This document shows positions 17,942 to 27,778 of a stretch of 63,298 nucleotides of DNA, piece by piece. Made by a program: the position numbers and the translations under genes. The number at the start of each line of letters is the position of its first letter. Positions within the stretch are counted from its first letter, which is position 1. The DNA lies in the NCBI RefSeq assembly GCF_000738775.1, contig NZ_JPOC01000062.1, forward strand, positions 1 through 63,298, given 5' to 3'. The DNA comes from Prescottella defluvii. GTDB lineage: Bacteria > Actinomycetota > Actinomycetes > Mycobacteriales > Mycobacteriaceae. The notes under the pieces are model-generated. The model did not search any database. It worked only from the letters and a program-made list of their open reading frames with translations, and was not told the origin of the DNA.

Positions 17942-19438
17942 GTGCTCGACACCGCTGCCGCCCCGCCCGACGTCACCTCCGTTCGCACCGCGTTGCGGTC
18001 GCCACGCCGACTCACCACCGAGGTGCTGGCCGGGTTGGTCACGTCCCTCGCGCTGATCCCCGAGGTGATCTCGTTCGCGGTCATCGCGGGAGTCGATCCC
18101 CGGGTGGCGCTGTACACCTCGTGCATCATGGCGATGACGATCGCGTTCGTCGGCGGACGTCCGGCGATGGTGTCGGCGGCGGCGGGCGCGACCGCACTGG
18201 TGATCGCACCCCTCGTCGCGTCGCACGGAATCGACTACCTCATCGCGGCGGTGTGGCTGGCCGGCGCCCTCCAGATCGTGCTCGCGGTGGCGGGTATCGC
18301 GAGACTGGTGCGGTTCATTCCGAGGTCGGTGATGATCGGCTTCGTCAACGCGCTCGCGATCCTCATCTTCAGCGCCCAGCTACGGCACCTGTTCGACGTG
18401 CCGTGGCTCGTGTATCCACTGGTCGTGGCGGGCCTGGTGATGATCGTGCTCGTGCCGAAGCTGACGACGTCGGTGCCGGCGCCGCTGATCGCGATCGTCG
18501 TCCTCACCGCGGTCGTCACGCTGTTCCATCTGGACGTCCCCGACGTCGCCGACCAGGGGGAGCTGCCGTCGGGCCTGCCCACCTGGATGATCCCGGACGT
18601 CCCGCTCACGTGGGAGACCCTCACGATCATCGCGCCGTTCGCGCTCGGGCTGGCGCTCGTGGGCCTGCTCGAATCGCTGCTCACCGCCAAGCTCGTCGAC
18701 GAGATCACCGACACCGGATCCGACAAGACCCGCGAGGCGTGGGGGCAGGGTGTCGCGAACATCGCCGGCGCCGCGTTCGGGGGCATGGGAGGCTGCGCGA
18801 TGATCGGCCAGACCATGATCAACGTGAAGGAAGGCCGGGCCCGGACCCGGATCTCGACGTTCCTCGCCGGCGCATTCCTCCTGGTGCTGTGTGTGACCGT
18901 CGGCGACGTCGTCGGTGCGATCCCGATGGCCGCGCTGGTCGCGGTGATGGTGGTGATCGCGGCCACCACGTTCGACTGGCGCAGCATCACCCCGCGCACG
19001 CTGCGGCTCATGCCGCGCAGCGAGACGCTCGTGATGGTCGTGACGGTCGTGGGGACCCTGGCCACCGAGAACCTCGCGGTCGGTGTCGTGCTCGGTGTCC
19101 TGACGGCGATGGTCGCGTTCGCGCGTCGCGTCGCGCACACGGCCCGCGTCGACGTCGACGACCGGGACGTCGACGGCGTCACCGTGCGGACCTACCGGGT
19201 GACGGGGCAACTGTTCTGGGCGTCGAGCAACGACCTGATTCATCGCTTCGACTACGCCGGTGGCCCGGACTCGGTGGTCGTCGACCTCACCGACGCCGAG
19301 GTGTGGGACGCCTCCACCGTGGCCACGCTCGATGCGGTGCTGCAGAAGTACGCCGCCGAGGGGGTATCCGCGCGCATCGTGGGCCTCGACGGGGCGAGCC
19401 TGAACCGGCTCGAGAGGTTGTCCGGGAAGCTCGGGTAG
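17942..19438 (+). CDS. SulP family anion transporter with STAS domain (second copy)
   Basis: A 498-residue membrane transporter. LTTEVLAGLVTSLALIPEVISFAVIAGVDP is the family N-terminal signature, but with SLALIPEVISFA in place of the LPQGMAYA type seen in sulfate carriers. Eleven or so membrane segments follow, then a C-terminal STAS domain (TGQLFWASSNDLIHRFDY, VVVDLTDAEVWDASTVATLDAVL). This variant resembles bacterial SulP members annotated as bicarbonate or dicarboxylate carriers, so sulfate should not be assumed despite the sulfur operon just downstream. GTG start, probably leaderless. Confidence 0.88.
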   Translation: MLDTAAAPPDVTSVRTALRSPRRLTTEVLAGLVTSLALIPEVISFAVIAGVDPRVALYTSCIMAMTIAFVGGRPAMVSAAAGATALVIAPLVASHGIDYLIAAVWLAGALQIVLAVAGIARLVRFIPRSVMIGFVNALAILIFSAQLRHLFDVPWLVYPLVVAGLVMIVLVPKLTTSVPAPLIAIVVLTAVVTLFHLDVPDVADQGELPSGLPTWMIPDVPLTWETLTIIAPFALGLALVGLLESLLTAKLVDEITDTGSDKTREAWGQGVANIAGAAFGGMGGCAMIGQTMINVKEGRARTRISTFLAGAFLLVLCVTVGDVVGAIPMAALVAVMVVIAATTFDWRSITPRTLRLMPRSETLVMVVTVVGTLATENLAVGVVLGVLTAMVAFARRVAHTARVDVDDRDVDGVTVRTYRVTGQLFWASSNDLIHRFDYAGGPDSVVVDLTDAEVWDASTVATLDAVLQKYAAEGVSARIVGLDGASLNRLERLSGKLG

Positions 19439-19602
19439 GCCCCGGGAATGCCGCCGTCGACCGCTCGTCTCACAGATGTCACCGTTCGTCGCCGCGCGTA
19501 TACGCACGATTTGGTCGCGGGGCGGAAGGCGCGTTAGCCTGCTCACACGGACACGCCGAACCCCGGTGTGCCGATTCTCGATCTCGTCCGGGAAGGACCT
19601 CG
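19439..19602 (+). other. Promoter and 5' leader region of the sulfur operon
   Basis: This 164-base stretch carries the promoter at 19511-19540 and the untranslated leader up to the cysteine-rich peptide. CACGCCGAACCCCGGTGTG near 19551-19569 can fold into a small hairpin. No other gene is evident. Confidence 0.5.
19511..19540 (+). promoter_or_regulatory. Predicted promoter of leader peptide and metQNI operon
   Basis: TTGGTC at 19511-19516 and TAGCCT at 19535-19540 are separated by 18 bases, a good housekeeping-sigma layout. Initiation near 19547 would leave about 56 bases of leader before the peptide start at 19603. No other pair upstream of the operon looks as good. Confidence 0.55.
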
Positions 19603-19677
19603 ATGCGCGGCACTGCAGTCACGGCCACCGCGACGCGAATGCGTTGCGTGTGTTGTCGCTGCATGCGCGTGAGCTGA
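19603..19677 (+). CDS. Cysteine-rich leader peptide (24 residues), likely attenuator
   Basis: GGAAGGA lies five bases before an ATG that opens a 24-codon frame. The peptide contains MRCVCCRCMR (residues 13-22) with Cys at 15, 17, 18 and 20. Four Cys codons within six is extreme for such a short frame. Short polycysteine frames upstream of sulfur genes are known in mycobacteria as cysteine-responsive attenuators: ribosome behaviour at the Cys codons reports cysteine supply. Here the frame is 126 bases upstream of an oxygenase-metQNI operon. CGCTGC overlapping the last Cys codons (19657-19662) is complementary to GCAGCG at 19758-19763, in the loop of the hairpin before the next gene, which offers a possible coupling. 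Confidence 0.78.
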   Translation: MRGTAVTATATRMRCVCCRCMRVS

Positions 19678-19741
19678 GACGAGATCCCCGCGCGACGTCC
19701 CCTCGAAGGCCGTCCCGCATCCCCGTGCTGATTCTTCCCAC

Positions 19742-19784
19742 CGGGCACCGAAACGTCGCAGCGTGAGTTATCCGCCGGTGCCCG
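19742..19784 (+). promoter_or_regulatory. Hairpin before the oxygenase ribosome-binding site
   Basis: CGGGCACCG (19742-19750) pairs perfectly with CGGTGCCCG (19776-19784). The 3' arm ends one base before the GGGGAAAGGA ribosome site of the gene at 19804. With no U tract after it, it fits control of translation or a Rho-type decision better than an intrinsic terminator. The loop holds GCAGCG, complementary to the Cys-codon region of the leader peptide, so two alternative folds are possible. Confidence 0.55.
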
Positions 19785-19803
19785 TGGGGAAAGGATCCAT
19801 GCC

Positions 19804-20802
19804 ATGTCCGCACACGCTCTCCCGATCATCGATCTGGACAACCTCGACGTCGACGCGCTCCGCAAGGTCACGCACGAGATCGGGTTCTTCTACCTGACCG
19901 GGCACGGCATCGACCAGCAGCTCACCGACGACCTGATCGCCACGTCCCGTGCGTTCTTCGCGTTGCCCGAGGCGGACAAGCTCGAGATCGAGAACAGCAA
20001 TTCGCCCCACTTCCGCGGCTACACCCGCGTCGGCGGTGAGCGCACCCAGGGCTACATCGACTGGCGCGAGCAGCTCGACATCGGACCCGAGCGGGCCGCG
20101 GTCGACCCGATCGACCCGGACCGTGCGTGGGACGTCCTGCACGGACCCAACCTGTGGCCCACGCGCATCCCGAAGCTGCGGGAGCTGGCCCTCGAGTGGT
20201 CGGCTCAGGCGCAGGCCGCCGGGCTCCGCCTGATCAGTGCCTGGGCGGTGTCGCTCGGCGCCCCCGCGGACTTCTTCGACGCCGCCTTCTCGGACCCCGA
20301 TCCGCTGCTGAAGATCGCCCGCTACCCGGGTCACGACGGCTCGGTGACCGGCCAGGGCGTCGGCAGCCACAAGGACGTCGGGGCGCTGACCCTGCTCTAC
20401 CCCGAGCCCGGCAGCGGCGGTTTCCAGGTGGAAACAGACGGCGGCTGGCTCGACGTCGCACCGATCCCCGGCCACCTGCTGGTCAACATCGGCGAGCTGC
20501 TCGAGGTCGCCACCGGCGGCTACCTCAAGGCCACCGTGCACCGGGTGCTGCCGCCGGCCGCCGGCACCGACCGGGTCTCGCTGCCGTTCTTCCTCAACCC
20601 CGGCTACGACCACGCCCTGCCCACCGTGCCGCTGGCGCCCGAGCTCGCGGCCGAGGCCGCCGGCGTCGGCCCCGACCAGCACGGCGGCACCCTGCACGCC
20701 CGCTACGGCCTCAACGCCCTCAAGTCGCGCCTGCGCGCGCACCCCAACGTCACCGAGCGGTACCACCGCGACCTGCTCGACCTGCCCGCCCTGCGCGGCT
20801 GA
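19804..20802 (+). CDS. Isopenicillin N synthase-type Fe(II)/2-oxoglutarate oxygenase
   Basis: A 332-residue cytosolic non-haem iron oxygenase. The N-terminal DIOX_N region (PIIDLDNLDVDALRKVTHEIGFFYLTGHGI) precedes a jelly-roll core with the iron facial triad His189-x-Asp191 and His246 and the substrate/co-substrate pair Arg257-x-Ser259 (RVS). The family oxidises small molecules including thiols. Its place as first gene of a metQNI operon behind a polycysteine leader suggests it releases or modifies sulfur from an imported compound; that is inference. GGGGAAAGGA precedes the ATG, and the site is next to a hairpin. Confidence 0.88.
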   Translation: MSAHALPIIDLDNLDVDALRKVTHEIGFFYLTGHGIDQQLTDDLIATSRAFFALPEADKLEIENSNSPHFRGYTRVGGERTQGYIDWREQLDIGPERAAVDPIDPDRAWDVLHGPNLWPTRIPKLRELALEWSAQAQAAGLRLISAWAVSLGAPADFFDAAFSDPDPLLKIARYPGHDGSVTGQGVGSHKDVGALTLLYPEPGSGGFQVETDGGWLDVAPIPGHLLVNIGELLEVATGGYLKATVHRVLPPAAGTDRVSLPFFLNPGYDHALPTVPLAPELAAEAAGVGPDQHGGTLHARYGLNALKSRLRAHPNVTERYHRDLLDLPALRG

Positions 20803-20833
20803 CCATCTCGACCCGATCGGAAGGCTCCTCCCA

Positions 20834-21667
20834 ATGTTCTTGCGCCGCACTGCTGTCCTGTCCGCCGCCGCTCTGCTCACCGTGGGCCTGGCCGCCTGCT
20901 CGTCGGGCGGTGACGGGGACAAGCTGGTGATCTCCGCGTCCACCACCCCGCACGTGGAGATCCTCGAGCACATCGCCGACTCCGGCGCCCTCGGCGACGT
21001 CACCCTCGACATCAAGCCGGTCACCGGCGAGATCGACCCCAACGAGCTGCTCGTCGCCGGTGACGTGAAGGTCAACTACTTCCAGCACGCCCCGTACCTC
21101 GCGGACTGGCAGAAGCAGAAGGGCGTGGACGATCTCGTCGCGGTCGCCGACGTCCACCTCGAGCCGATGGGCCTGTACTCGGAGAAGGTCACCGCGGTCG
21201 ACCAGATCGCCGACGGGTCGACCATCGCGCTGCCCAAGGACACCACCAACTTCTCGCGCGGGCTGTACCTGCTCGAGTCCGCCGGTCTGATCGAGATGGA
21301 CGTGCCGTTCGCCGACGCCAACCTGTCGGTCGTGACGCAGAAGAACATCAAGGCCAACCCGAAGAACCTGAAGTTCGTCGAGATCGAGCGCTCGCAGATC
21401 GCCCGCAACCTGGGCGACCCGCAGATCACCGCGGCGATCATCAACTCGAACTACGCGCTCGAGGCCGGCCTGAATCCGACCGCGGACTCCCTCATCGCGG
21501 AGAAGGCGGAGGGCAACCCGTTCGCGAACCTGCTCGTCGTCCGCGCCGCCGACGAGAACGATCCCGGCGTCAAGGCCCTCGCCGAGGCCCTCGAGTCGCC
21601 GGAGACCGCCGCCTGGATCCAGGAGAACTACTCCGGCGCCGTCATCCCGGTCCACGCGGGCAGCTGA
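20834..21667 (+). CDS. metQ: MetQ/NlpA-type substrate-binding lipoprotein
   Basis: The 277-residue extracytoplasmic lipoprotein starts MFLRRTAVLS with lipobox LAAC and Cys22, followed by a short Ser/Gly linker. The NlpA fold is shown by LVISASTTPHVEILEHI, VNYFQHAPYLADW and the conserved DQIADGSTIALPKDTTNFSRGLYLLESAGLI. It should capture methionine or a related sulfur compound for MetNI. The gene is 31 bases after the oxygenase, and its stop TGA shares one base with the metN ATG, so production is coupled. Confidence 0.9.
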   Translation: MFLRRTAVLSAAALLTVGLAACSSGGDGDKLVISASTTPHVEILEHIADSGALGDVTLDIKPVTGEIDPNELLVAGDVKVNYFQHAPYLADWQKQKGVDDLVAVADVHLEPMGLYSEKVTAVDQIADGSTIALPKDTTNFSRGLYLLESAGLIEMDVPFADANLSVVTQKNIKANPKNLKFVEIERSQIARNLGDPQITAAIINSNYALEAGLNPTADSLIAEKAEGNPFANLLVVRAADENDPGVKALAEALESPETAAWIQENYSGAVIPVHAGS

Positions 21668-22701
21668 TGATCACCGTCGAGAACCTGGTCAAGACCTTCC
21701 CCGCAGCTGCCGGCGCGGGGAAGGTCTCGGCTCTGCGCGGCATCGACCTCGAGATCGCCGACGGCGAGATCTTCGGCATCGTCGGGCCGTCGGGCGCCGG
21801 TAAATCGACGCTGCTGCGATGCCTGAACCTGCTCGAGCGTCCCACCAGCGGACGCATCGTGCTCCGCGGCGACGACGTCTCGCAGCTGACCGGTGCCGGT
21901 CAGCGGCAGGCACGTCGCCGCATCGGCACCGTGTTCCAACAGTTCAACCTGCTGCACTCGCGGACCGTCCGGGCCAACATCGAGTTTCCGCTCGAACTGG
22001 CCGGACTTGACCGCAAGCAGCGCCGGGCCCGCGCCGACGAACTGATCGAGCTGGTCGGTCTCGCCGGCAAGGAGAAGTCGTTCCCGTCGCAGCTGTCGGG
22101 TGGTCAGCAGCAGCGTGTGGGCATCGCCCGTGCCCTGGCGTCGGAGCCCGACGTGCTGCTGTGTGACGAGGCGACCAGTGCGCTCGACCCCGACACCACC
22201 GATCAGGTGCTGGATCTGCTCGCCGAACTGAACCGCAGGCTCGGCGTCACAGTCGTGCTCATCACCCACGAACTGGGGGTGCTGCGCCGGATCTGCACCT
22301 CCGCAGCCCGGCTCGAGGACGGCCGGATCGCGGAGACCGGACGGATCCTCGACCTGGTCGGAACGCCCGGCTCGGTGCTCGGCGCGGCGATCGTCCCGGT
22401 CGGGGACGACCCGTCCGTGGGCGACGACGCCGATACCGCGATGGTCACCACGATCGGTGACGACGCGCACGGCCCGTGGCTCGCGCAACTCGTCCGCAAG
22501 CTGGACGTCGACATCTCCGTCGTCGGCGGTCGCGTCGAACAGGTCTCCGGTGTCACGGTCGGCCGACTGCGTCTGCGTTTCGGTCCCGATGTGAACCGGG
22601 CCGACGTCGAGGCGTTCGTGGAGACACAGCCGGGTACCACCCTGGCATGGGGTGCACGACCGGAAACGACCGGCGCAGTGGCGCAGGGGGCAACCGCATG
22701 A
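21667..22701 (+). CDS. metN: Methionine-type ABC importer ATPase with NIL domain
   Basis: A 344-residue ATPase on the inner face of the membrane. Walker A GPSGAGKST is at 40-48, the signature is LSGGQQQRVGIARAL, Walker B LLCDEATSALD, and the switch His is in LITHELGVL. The C-terminal 90 residues (TIGDDAHGPWLAQLVRKLDVDISVVGG, then FGPDVNRADVEAFV) form a NIL/ACT-like domain that in E. coli MetN binds methionine and shuts off transport. So feedback by substrate is expected. It overlaps metI by four bases. Confidence 0.93.
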   Translation: MITVENLVKTFPAAAGAGKVSALRGIDLEIADGEIFGIVGPSGAGKSTLLRCLNLLERPTSGRIVLRGDDVSQLTGAGQRQARRRIGTVFQQFNLLHSRTVRANIEFPLELAGLDRKQRRARADELIELVGLAGKEKSFPSQLSGGQQQRVGIARALASEPDVLLCDEATSALDPDTTDQVLDLLAELNRRLGVTVVLITHELGVLRRICTSAARLEDGRIAETGRILDLVGTPGSVLGAAIVPVGDDPSVGDDADTAMVTTIGDDAHGPWLAQLVRKLDVDISVVGGRVEQVSGVTVGRLRLRFGPDVNRADVEAFVETQPGTTLAWGARPETTGAVAQGATA

Positions 22702-23366
22702 ACAAGCTGACCTGGACCGACTCGCTCCCCGAGGTGTGGGAGGCGACGCAGGAAACCCTGTACATGGTGGGAATCTCGTTCGTGCTCACGGTGATCGGCG
22801 GCGTCGTCCTCGGCGTGGTGCTGCACGTGACCTCGCCGAGCGGACTGTGGCCGCAGCGCGCCGTCAACGCGGTGCTCGGCGCCATCGTCAACGTCTTCCG
22901 TTCACTGCCGTTCCTGATCCTGATGATCGCGCTGATCGGCCTGACACGGCTGATCGTCGGCACCGCGATCGGTCCGACCGCCGCGATCGTGCCGCTGACG
23001 ATCGGCGCGATCCCGTTCTATGCGCGGGTCGTCGAATCCGCCCTGCGTGAGGTACCCGTCGGCCGGGTCGAGGCCGCGCAGGTGATGGGCGCGAGCAACG
23101 GTCAGATCGTCCGAAAAGTGTTGCTGCCGGAGTCGGTTTCGGCGTTGGTCGCCGGCGCGACCCTGACCGTGGTGCTGCTCGTCGGGTACTCGGCGATGGC
23201 CGGTGTCATCGGTGGCGGCGGACTGGGCGACTTCGCGATCGTCTACGGCTACCAGCGGTTCAACACGCCGGTACTGCTGGTGGCGGTCGTCGTGCTCATC
23301 GTCCTGGTGCAGATCCTGCAGTCCATCGGCGACGGTATCGTCCGGGCACTGAAGCACCGCAAGTAG
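22698..23366 (+). CDS. metI: Methionine-type ABC importer permease
   Basis: The 222-residue permease has five hydrophobic segments and the EAA-loop sequence EVPVGRVEAAQVMGASNGQIVRKVLLPES that docks the ATPase. NVFRSLPFLILMIALIGLTRLIVGT is typical of MetI. Its ATG overlaps the metN stop (ATGA). It ends the operon, and a strong hairpin follows within 10 bases. Confidence 0.93.
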   Translation: MNKLTWTDSLPEVWEATQETLYMVGISFVLTVIGGVVLGVVLHVTSPSGLWPQRAVNAVLGAIVNVFRSLPFLILMIALIGLTRLIVGTAIGPTAAIVPLTIGAIPFYARVVESALREVPVGRVEAAQVMGASNGQIVRKVLLPESVSALVAGATLTVVLLVGYSAMAGVIGGGGLGDFAIVYGYQRFNTPVLLVAVVVLIVLVQILQSIGDGIVRALKHRK

Positions 23367-25355: not shown

Positions 25356-26759
25356 TCAGATGTCGAGGCCGAGGAGCGCGTTCTCGACGACCTCGGGCAT
25401 CGCCGGGTGGATCCAGTACTGGCCGGTGGCCATGTCCTGCGCCGACAGGCCGAAGCTCATGGCCTGGATCAGCGGCTGGATGACGGTCGGGGCCTGTGCG
25501 CCGATGACGTGCGCGCCGAGCAGGCGTCCGGTGCCGCGTTCGGCGATCACCTTGCAGAAGCCCTCGTCGTCCTCCATCGCCCAGCCGTACGCGACGTCGC
25601 CGTAGTTCTGCACCTTGACGGTGATGTCGAGGCCGGCCTCGCGGGCCTGCTCCTCGGTCATGCCGACGTCGGCGATCTGCGGGTCGGTGAACACCGCCGC
25701 GGGCACGAACCGGTGGTCGGTCCGGCGCAAACGTGAGATCGGGTGGACCGCAGTGTCGTTCCAGGCGTCGTGCAGCAGATTGTGCTGGACGACGCGCATC
25801 TCGTGGTTCGCGACGTGCTTGAGCTGGTACGGCGACGACACGTCCCCGAGCGCGAACACGCCCTCCGCGGTGGTGCGCTGGAACTCGTCGACGATGACCC
25901 GTCCGTTGTCGTCGACGGCCACCCCGCCGTGCGCCGCGTCGAGCAGGTCCCCGTTGGGGGTGCGGCCGACGGCGACCAGCAGTTCGTCGCCGGCGACGAC
26001 GGTGCCGTCGGCCAGTTCGATCTCGATGCCGCCCCCGGCCGGCCGGGCCGCGACCATCGGGTTGCTCAGGTGGACGTCCCACTTGCGGTGGGCCAGTTCC
26101 GTGAACCAGTCCGAGACGTCCCGGTCCAGGTGACGCAGCAGGCGCTCGCTGCGGCCGATGATCGACACCTGGACGCCGAGCGCCGAGAACACGTGCGCGA
26201 ACTCCGCGGCGATGAAGCCGGATCCGAGGATCACCAGACGCTCCGGCAGTTCGGGCAGGCGCATGATGTCGTCGTTGGTGTGGAAGCGGACTCCGCCGTC
26301 GAGGATCTCCTGCGGGATCGTCGGCCGTGAACCGGCCGCGATCACCACCTGGTCGGCGGTGATGACCTCACCCGTTCCGGTGTCGATGGTGCGGGGCCCG
26401 ACGAACCGGGCGTGCCCGCGGAACACGGTCACGTTCGCGCAGTCCTCGGAGCGGTACCGCTCGCCGCCGACGGAGATCGGATCGATCCGGCCGAACACAC
26501 GCTTGACGATGTCGTGCCAGCGCACGTCGTCGAGGGTCGCGTCGATCCCCAGCTTGGAGGATTCGGTGATCGTGCGGGCGACCTCGGCCGCGTAGACGTA
26601 CATCTTGGTGGGGATGCAGCCCACATTGAGGCACGTGCCGCCGAACGTGCCCTCCTCCAGGATCGCGACCTTCATCCCGTCGTAGCGTTCGTCGAGGATC
26701 GAGTTGCCCGATCCGCTTCCGATGATCGCGAGGTCGAAGTGGGTATCGGGGTGGTTCAC
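25356..26759 (-). CDS. mtr: Mycothione reductase
   Basis: This flavoenzyme uses NADPH to reduce mycothione disulfide back to mycothiol, the main low-mass thiol of actinobacteria. The 467-residue protein has the FAD motif IIGSGSGNS (12-20), redox Cys43 and Cys48 in [13 protein letters not shown], the NADPH region [21 protein letters not shown], and the C-terminal interface [17 protein letters not shown] with the catalytic His. The variant GSGSGN at the FAD site is usual for Mtr. GTG 26759 overlaps the upstream hydrolase stop by four bases. Its presence supports a mycothiol-producing host. Confidence 0.93.
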
Positions 26760-27778
26760 GCGGGGGCTCCGGACTCTCGGTCTGACAGGTGGTGGGCGTC
26801 GAGCCAGTCGAGCCACAGATTCACCTCGGTGAACGCGGCCGCGAGGGGCTTCTCGGTGGACAGGAACACGTCGTGGCGGGCGCCGTCGATCGGCACGATC
26901 GTGGTGCGGTTGCCGAGGCAGCCGGCCCACTTCGCGATCTGGTCGACGTCGAGGACGGCATCCGCGGCGTCGACGGCAGGGTTGTAGCGGGACGCGAAGA
27001 CCGTGTTCTTCGACCTCAGGATCAGTGACGGTACCCCGATGTCGAGGCCGCGATGCAGCTGCGCGTGGCCGCGGCGGATCGCGCGCAGCCAGCCGAACGT
27101 GACGGGGAACCCGGTCAGCGGCTTCCAGTCGAGGTCGTACTCCCACGCGCCCCCCGAACCCACGTGCAGGCTCGAGCCGTACGTATCGAGCTTCTGGCCG
27201 GGGATGGGGGTCTTGCTCGACACCCGGCCCAGCGCGTCGATGGCCGCGGTGGTGCCGGCGGTGCGCAGCAGGGCCGGGCCCTGCAGGTCGAACCACGGGC
27301 TGTTGAGGATGAGACCCGCCACACCGGCACCGGCGGACCCGCCCGGCTTGCGTTCGAGTCGATCGAGCCACAACGGCACGATCAGCCCGCCCGTGGAGTG
27401 CGCGACGAGCAGGACCTGGCCGCCGCCGATCTGCTCGCGCACCACACGCAGCGCCTCGTTCAGTTCGGCGTCGTACATCCGCAGGTCGGTCACGAAGTGC
27501 GGTGTCTGACTTGGACGCCGTGACCGGCCGCATTTACGCAGGTCGAGCGCGAAAAAGGAGAATCCCTGCTCGGCGAAATGCTCGGCGAGATGCTGCTGGA
27601 AGAAGTAGTCGGTGAACCCGTGGACGTAGAGCACGGCCCGGTTCGCGGGGGTGGAGGCGGGCTGGTAGCGGACCAGTGTGGCCTCGACGTCTCCCTCCCC
27701 GTCGGGATCGGTCCCCAAAGGGATTGTCAGCTGCTGGTATCCATCGCCGAGGACGTCGGGAGCCCAAGTAGTCACCAT
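26756..27778 (-). CDS. Lysophospholipase/monoglyceride lipase-like alpha/beta hydrolase
   Basis: A 340-residue cytosolic serine hydrolase of the Hydrolase_4 group. [25 protein letters not shown] is the N-terminal strand and oxyanion loop, [18 protein letters not shown] holds the nucleophile Ser, and [12 protein letters not shown] provides the His. ATG 27778 is used; GTG 27781 directly before it and GTG 27772 are alternatives. A TAGAGT element directly abuts the start region, so a leaderless start at the third codon GTG is possible. It precedes mtr with a GTGA overlap, an arrangement I recall from related genomes. Confidence 0.85.

Follow-up and report, generated by a model that had tools for sequence, protein, structure and literature searches.

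A putative cysteine-sensing leader peptide of an oxygenase-metQNI operon in Prescottella defluvii and its relatives

Introduction

Mycobacteria reportedly use polycysteine leader peptides as attenuators, as Canestrari is said to have described in 2020. Here we analyse a candidate of this type from Prescottella defluvii, where a 24-codon frame rich in Cys codons precedes an oxygenase gene and the metQ, metN and metI genes of a putative methionine-type importer. The frame is located in a stretch of 63,298 nucleotides (contig NZ_JPOC01000062.1 of assembly GCF_000738775.1, positions 1 to 63,298, forward strand), which is called the window below. An initial annotation made from the sequence had proposed that cysteine supply tunes both the uptake of a sulfur compound and its oxidation by the oxygenase.

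Cys-rich leaders are known in mycobacteria (PMC1262725; PMC4633059; reviewed in PMC9031893), and Rho was proposed to act in the mycobacterial cys leaders (PMC1262725). The P. defluvii frame is similar to the mycobacterial polycysteine attenuators in being short, in carrying its Cys codons near the stop codon and in lying ahead of a sulfur operon, and ribosome stalling on Cys codons is proposed there as it is here. It differs in its target, metQNI plus oxygenase, and in having a Shine-Dalgarno sequence and a 5' leader, whereas the mycobacterial form is leaderless. A second relative is found in Streptomyces lividans TK24, where the leader metL (MSTTSDRTPATEATTTPGARCMCRRMCAF) precedes metNIQ and is listed as methionine-dependent and leaderless (PMC8079986). 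In both leaders Cys codons are clustered, and both precede the genes of a MetQNI-type transporter. Yet the S. lividans operon has the gene order N-I-Q and no oxygenase match, its leader was published as a methionine leader, and the peptides are otherwise unlike.

The top-ranked results from the open-licence PubMed Central literature contained no description of the leader or of the oxygenase operon in Rhodococcus. The novelty claimed by the initial annotation is narrower than stated, because a leader of S. lividans metNIQ is in print with a methionine-type reading. As to physiology, two further reports state that MetQ and MetN of R. qingshengii IGTS8 were raised on dibenzothiophene compared with sulfate (PMC8557817) and that reverse transsulfuration from methionine to cysteine was proposed for Rhodococcus (PMC9426449). 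A leader that reports on cysteine and switches on methionine-type import fits this chemistry.

A conserved Cys-run frame that goes with metQNI

The leader frame MRGTAVTATATRMRCVCCRCMRVS occupies 19603..19677 of the plus strand, from the ATG at 19603 to the TGA at 19675-19677, and is preceded by the Shine-Dalgarno sequence GGGAAGGA (19590..19597, +), which is mostly kept in the alignment of related leaders. Four of six consecutive codons, starting at 19645, 19651, 19654 and 19660, specify Cys. This cluster, CVCCRC (19645..19662, +), is the proposed sensor. The 24 codons, the strong ribosome site and the four Cys within six codons were all as initially annotated. The short frames of the window (8-40 aa, both strands) have 249 ATG starts, and four Cys in six codons followed from only 2 of these, both belonging to the leader frame itself; in 8 windows simulated with a first-order Markov model this density did not occur.

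The genus of P. defluvii, which includes Rhodococcus hoagii AcN21-7, was searched in 14 genomes and yielded 12 oxygenase loci including that of the window; the copy of genome G008 is fragmented, and a close oxygenase was not found in genomes G003 and G011. All 12 loci carry the frame, with its start 196-201 nt before the oxygenase. At the family level a close oxygenase was present in 36 of 401 genomes. The 38 loci examined comprise 37 oxygenase matches, two of them in genome G094, together with the broken copy from G008 (locus L023). metQ directly follows the oxygenase in 27 of these loci and does not in 11. By inspection a Cys-run frame, with 2-4 Cys per six codons, was present in 27/27 oxygenase-metQ loci compared with 0/11 oxygenase loci lacking metQ (Fisher p = 8e-10 for 27/0 vs 0/11, with kinship not removed); a fixed filter alone gave 26/27, because it missed L009 with only 2 Cys, and 1/11 due to a chance frame in L152. 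In 27/27 the frame stops 110-147 nt before the oxygenase; such recurrence shows that it is not a chance occurrence. Thus a Cys run near the stop codon lies upstream of a sulfur operon, and position and run are conserved across species, as in known polycysteine attenuators. The frame search in related operons that had been suggested along with the initial annotation therefore turned out in its favor. Eight named Rhodococcus loci showed the same pattern; they overlap with genomes already counted and were not added.

Loci with and without the leader and metQ were both found inside three genera (g48, g21 and g13). In L134 a SulP-type permease gene and the oxygenase are retained 54 nt apart, while leader and metQNI are both missing; L135 shows identical spacing and almost the same sequence upstream, and there SulP is presumed from L134, where it was demonstrated. 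A blastn search for leader remnants in the 11 loci without metQ returned nothing but a 24-nt antisense match in L139.

Does the leader belong to the oxygenase or to the transporter? A MetQ homologue at E <=1e-60 was detected in 40 of the 401 family genomes. In 30 of the 40 it is close (at least 68% identity), and these are the 27 oxygenase-metQ loci plus G003, G011 and G183. The Cys-run leader was present in 30/30 close metQ loci. In G003 and G011 a leader with the peptide MRSPATPDATTLMRGRCCCMRWR or its twin is located just before metQ, and a hairpin over the ribosome site, similar to the hairpin P2 of the window (see below), is predicted in both (2/2). In G183 (locus L179) metQ is preceded by a Cys frame and by the remains of a degraded oxygenase gene. 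Because the leader stays before metQ without the oxygenase and is missing without metQ, it belongs to the metQNI lineage. On this comparison of loci an oxygenase gene at the head of the operon is optional, and the leader is tied to metQNI, contrary to the initial tie of the leader to the oxygenase.

Cysteine as the likely signal

The 27 leader peptides fall into two lineages, 14 in the first and 13 in the second, which are unlike apart from their Cys runs. First-lineage peptides read MRG.AAT.A...MRGGCCCMRQR or ...CVCCRCMRVS and variants, with Met directly after the Cys run; second-lineage peptides end in APACCCR, PACCRCR, CRCCRCF, SCCCACR and similar. In the six-codon stretch richest in Cys there are 4 Cys residues in 5 leaders, 3 in 21 and 2 in one, and the last Cys is followed by 1-5 codons to the stop. 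Met occurs in this stretch in 3/14 leaders of the first lineage and in 0/13 of the second. Because Cys-run ends are kept in otherwise unlike peptides and Met is lacking from 13/13 second-lineage runs, cysteine is likely the signal sensed by the leader, as far as peptide comparison can tell.

The metL leader was surveyed in the same manner. A MetI query matched 51 of 396 genomes of the phylum. Of the 55 matches listed 40 were looked at, and the filter flagged 8 of these 40, six of the metL type and two chance-like (L267 and L273). A metL-like peptide was present upstream of metN in 11/11 fetched loci of genus g54 (L247-L257), which we take to be Streptomyces from the peptide match. C-x-C is kept in 10 of the 11, the exception being L253, and the internal Met is replaced by Leu in 2 of those 10. 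This conservation argues for a cysteine rather than a methionine reading of S. lividans metL, and the published methionine leader appears worth a re-test as a cysteine sensor.

Leader RNA and proposed mechanism

Promoter and RNA structure were analysed in an alignment (A3) of the 14 first-lineage leaders. A putative -10 element of the leader promoter, TAGCCT (19535..19540, +), is identical in 12/14 and conforms to TANNNT in 14/14, while a scan with the sigma-70 consensus found no promoter at the leader. Thus the good promoter of the initial annotation is retained as a conserved -10-like element and not as a consensus promoter. Counted from this element, the 5' leader before the frame would be about 55 nt long; with 62 nt between the end of the putative -10 and the ATG, and with its own Shine-Dalgarno sequence, the window frame is not leaderless. 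In the second lineage three leaders (L136, L137 and L143) look leaderless by eye, so that some of its leaders probably resemble the mycobacterial polycysteine form.

Between the frame and the oxygenase a hairpin, P2 (19736..19789, +; arms 19736-19749/19777-19789), forms its 13 pairs in 14/14 leaders, with 11 of the 13 invariant. It extends over the left edge of the ribosome site of the oxygenase gene, which has the Shine-Dalgarno sequence GGAAAGGA (19788..19795, +), in agreement with the hairpin touching the next ribosome site in the initial annotation. In the folded window sequence GGAAAGG of this site had a mean unpaired probability of 0.20. The loop element of P2, CGTCGCAGC (19754-19762, +), is complementary with one mismatch to the near-invariant GCTGAGACG at the frame stop (19673..19681, +); 8/9 pairs are possible in 13/14 leaders and 7/9 in the other, with no covariation. 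In RNAduplex predictions the sequence that paired best with the P2 loop was no more than 5 nt away from the stop codon in 7/14 leaders. The pairing of the Cys region with the hairpin loop that was noted initially is therefore possible for the Cys or stop region and recurs across leaders. RNAduplex showed no conserved sequence that would compete for pairing with the 5' arm of P2, and a scan found no intrinsic terminator between the frame and the oxygenase gene. Nearer the 5' end of the leader, a small hairpin, P1 (19550..19572, +), has both-side changes at 4/6 pairs, with 89% of cells paired. It lies upstream of the ribosome site of the short frame and shows compensatory changes. For P1 and P2 together the observed covariation score was reached by 0/500 shuffles, the value for cells by 10/500 and that for pairs with both-side changes by 17/500. 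A covariance search of 19300-20000 against Rfam returned nothing above gathering thresholds and three sub-threshold matches to unrelated families.

Translation of the frame is suggested by its Shine-Dalgarno sequence and by frame-keeping indels, which are all of 3 or 6 nt, with internal stops in 0/14 aligned first-lineage leaders. We consider it probable that the frame is a cysteine-sensing, ribosome-mediated polycysteine attenuator of the metQNI operon, with a sulfur-sparing oxygenase as the first gene. As long as Cys-tRNA is sufficient, the ribosome would pass the Cys codons and terminate; the leader RNA would then block access to the first gene's ribosome site by means of P2, and pairing of the frame end with the P2 loop may help closure. 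At low cysteine the ribosome would stall on the Cys codons near the stop, the leader RNA would be changed, and translation of the operon or continued transcription would rise. Imported methionine or a related compound could then feed cysteine through reverse transsulfuration. While we claim the sensor with confidence, we infer translation of the frame, the output step with stalling, the direction of control and the structure that is switched, as well as the substrate that is transported. If so, a control type known from mycobacteria would act on a new target in many Rhodococcus species, and ribosome-sensed control by cysteine, known from cysteine synthesis, would also cover methionine-type uptake in two actinobacterial groups.

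Several results weigh against this attenuator. The substitution-type coding signal is weak, as the synonymous share was 0.27, 0.26 and 0.25 in the three frames; the mean BLOSUM62 score was 0.74 in the leader frame compared with 0.27 and 0.36 in the other two. One terminator-like match, compared with a mean of 0.1 in shuffled sequences, lies inside the frame at 19629-19648. Because P2 hardly varies, covariation cannot support it, and for further pair types 287/500 shuffles reached the value observed for P1 and P2 together. In nested folding with a stalled ribosome masked over any of three Cys codons or over the stop, the oxygenase ribosome site stayed as closed as it was without the mask. Compared with composition shuffles (60 each) this site was not clearly more hidden, its accessibility being at <=0.05 in 4/14 first-lineage and 0/13 second-lineage leaders, and a P2 common to the second lineage was not seen. 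Finally, ten more distant MetQ loci, six of genus g23 at 50-54% and four of genus g3 at ~40% identity, had no Cys frame (0/10), therefore metQNI in general needs no such leader. Taken together, the cysteine control of uptake and oxidation proposed in the initial annotation gained from Cys being the residue shared by the leaders and from the frame in 27/27 loci, and lost in that the link to the oxygenase is secondary and that folding with a masked ribosome opened no site.

Alternative explanations

If the leader sensed methionine, as stated for S. lividans metL, the Cys codons would be incidental. The metQNI genes downstream, the Met beside the Cys run in first-lineage peptides and the listing of metL as methionine-dependent in PMC8079986 all speak for this; yet Met is absent from the best Cys stretch throughout the second lineage, and in the Streptomyces-like loci it is C-x-C that is kept while the Met inside gives way to Leu. 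Thus we regard methionine sensing as improbable. Even less can be said for an action of the Cys-rich peptide itself, by metal binding or redox chemistry on the ribosome, in place of codon-limited stalling. Cys clusters bind metals, and metal- or redox-responsive Cys-rich leader peptides exist in other bacteria. However, number and spacing of the Cys residues vary (CCC, CCRC, CRCCRC, CC), and the sulfur-uptake genes downstream together with the sulfur-free oxygenase point to supply, not chemistry, which makes this explanation very unlikely. The frame might also be untranslated and the conserved stretch an RNA element such as a riboswitch, with the Cys codons as by-products. The strong RNA conservation around the frame, the compensatory changes of P1 and the weak substitution signal for coding are in line with an RNA element. 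On the other hand, Rfam gave no match above gathering, indels keep the frame and internal stops are absent in 14/14, and the second lineage has unlike RNA yet retains Cys-run ends; accordingly we give an untranslated frame hardly any credence.

A variant of the polycysteine attenuator, in which the output is at transcription, deserves more attention. Here stalled or fast ribosomes would act on a leader terminator or on the access of Rho, with P2 being incidental. Rho was proposed for mycobacterial cys leaders (PMC1262725), no common P2 was seen in the second lineage, the folds with a stalled ribosome leave the site closed, and the frame holds the one terminator-like match. But no intrinsic terminator was found by the scan between frame and gene, and P2 is paired in 14/14 leaders right beside the ribosome site. 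We therefore hold an output at transcription to be possible, if rather doubtful.

The oxygenase and the gene layout

The oxygenase gene (19804..20802, +) encodes 332 aa with the Pfam domains DIOX_N and 2OG-FeII_Oxy, the mark of a 2-oxoglutarate- and Fe(II)-dependent (2OG-Fe(II)) oxygenase, and with the motifs HxD...H and RxS. H189, D191, H246, R257 and S259 are invariant in 27/27 aligned oxygenases; we take these to be the iron and 2-oxoglutarate residues. The AlphaFold2 model had a pLDDT of 90.3, and Foldseek listed 9ovh, an ancestral ethylene-forming enzyme, and 6jyv, a Pseudomonas protein similar to isopenicillin N synthase (IPNS), as the closest structures at 35-38% identity. The enzyme resembles these proteins in fold, sequence and both motifs, and differs in being free of Cys and internal Met and in its link to metQNI. 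The best named relatives are from R. hoagii AcN21-7 (94%) and R. tukisamuensis (93%), the window's own record perhaps being left out.

The 332 residues include no Cys, and the only Met is the start. In the window, 25 coding-like frames contain 0.82% Cys and 1.73% Met on average, from which eight or nine such residues would be expected. The 26 orthologues with metQ (the broken gene of L023 being left out) had means of 0.04 Cys and 1.12 Met, compared with 0.55 and 2.64 in the 11 orthologues without metQ and 0.07 and 1.35 in 72 distant homologues taken from the best 80 of 586. Thus the oxygenase family as sampled appears nearly sulfur-free, as would be expected of a sulfur-starvation enzyme; near-absence of sulfur residues is a mark of sulfur-acquisition proteins according to PMC7661421. 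Because low Cys and Met were also seen in relatives without metQNI, this feature does not by itself tie the enzyme to the operon. We tentatively suggest that leader, metQNI and oxygenase constitute a cysteine-starvation module switched by Cys-tRNA, in which the oxygenase may free sulfur from, or modify, an imported methionine-like organosulfur compound, and that metL may likewise be a cysteine sensor. Such a scavenging route was not found described in the open-licence literature searched. A leader kept with the transporter and an oxygenase that is dispensable and sulfur-free may provide a setting for seeking the substrate of this oxygenase family.

Within the fetched flanks a metQNI homologue was found beside none of the 72 distant oxygenase relatives. 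Five genes were taken from three of these loci, and a homologue of any of them was present in 6/72, too few to point to a function. In one Microbacterium locus (L042:30-5020) the oxygenase gene follows genes for a pyridoxal phosphate (PLP) enzyme of Cys/Met metabolism, a luciferase-like monooxygenase (0 Cys, 1 Met) and an enzyme of aminotransferase fold.

The plus-strand order of the window is SulP-type permease, leader of about 260 nt, oxygenase, metQ, metN and metI. From the oxygenase on all genes are on the plus strand with short gaps or overlapping open reading frames. metQ (20834..21667, +) encodes the lipoprotein substrate-binding subunit (Pfam Lipoprotein_9; solved MetQ structures among its relatives), metN (21667..22701, +) an ATPase with a NIL domain (ABC_tran and NIL) and metI (22698..23366, +) the permease (BPD_transp_1). 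Read from the sequence, metI starts with the ATG at 22698 and overlaps the metN stop, a small correction to the earlier note. These Pfam domains, which together make up a MetQNI importer, bear out the identities initially given to the four genes, an IPNS-type oxygenase, metQ, metN and metI. The models do not fix the transported substrate; the best NCBIfam matches of MetN (TIGR02314) and MetI (NF008049) fall below the curated cut-offs, the latter slightly, so that the label methionine-type is putative. Upstream, and outside the leader unit, is the gene of the SulP-type sulfate permease with a STAS domain (17942..19438, +; Pfam Sulfate_transp and STAS). On the minus strand at 25356-27533 the translation of a frame resembles, by eye, a disulfide reductase of the mycothione reductase type.

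Other Cys-rich leaders of the genome

The genome of the window comprises 5.13 Mb in 265 contigs. Here the pattern TGYTGYTGYATGCG occurred at 1 place, as did a control pattern, and was not leader-like on inspection. The pattern TGYTGYTGYCGN..TGA was found at 20 places compared with 18 for the reversed control, none of them leader-like. A sulfate transporter cluster near C26:41560-44270 had no Cys frame on its strand. A second Cys-rich leader, MAAMTDTGVRLVARRHVDLKRVCSCCCLPCGV, at L212:2885-2983 (contig C26:30884), precedes a gene of the sulfite/nitrite reductase family (NIR_SIR, C26:31128-32865). It looks like the actinobacterial leader with the motif HVDLxRVCS...C, from which the metQNI leader differs both in its peptide and in its operon.

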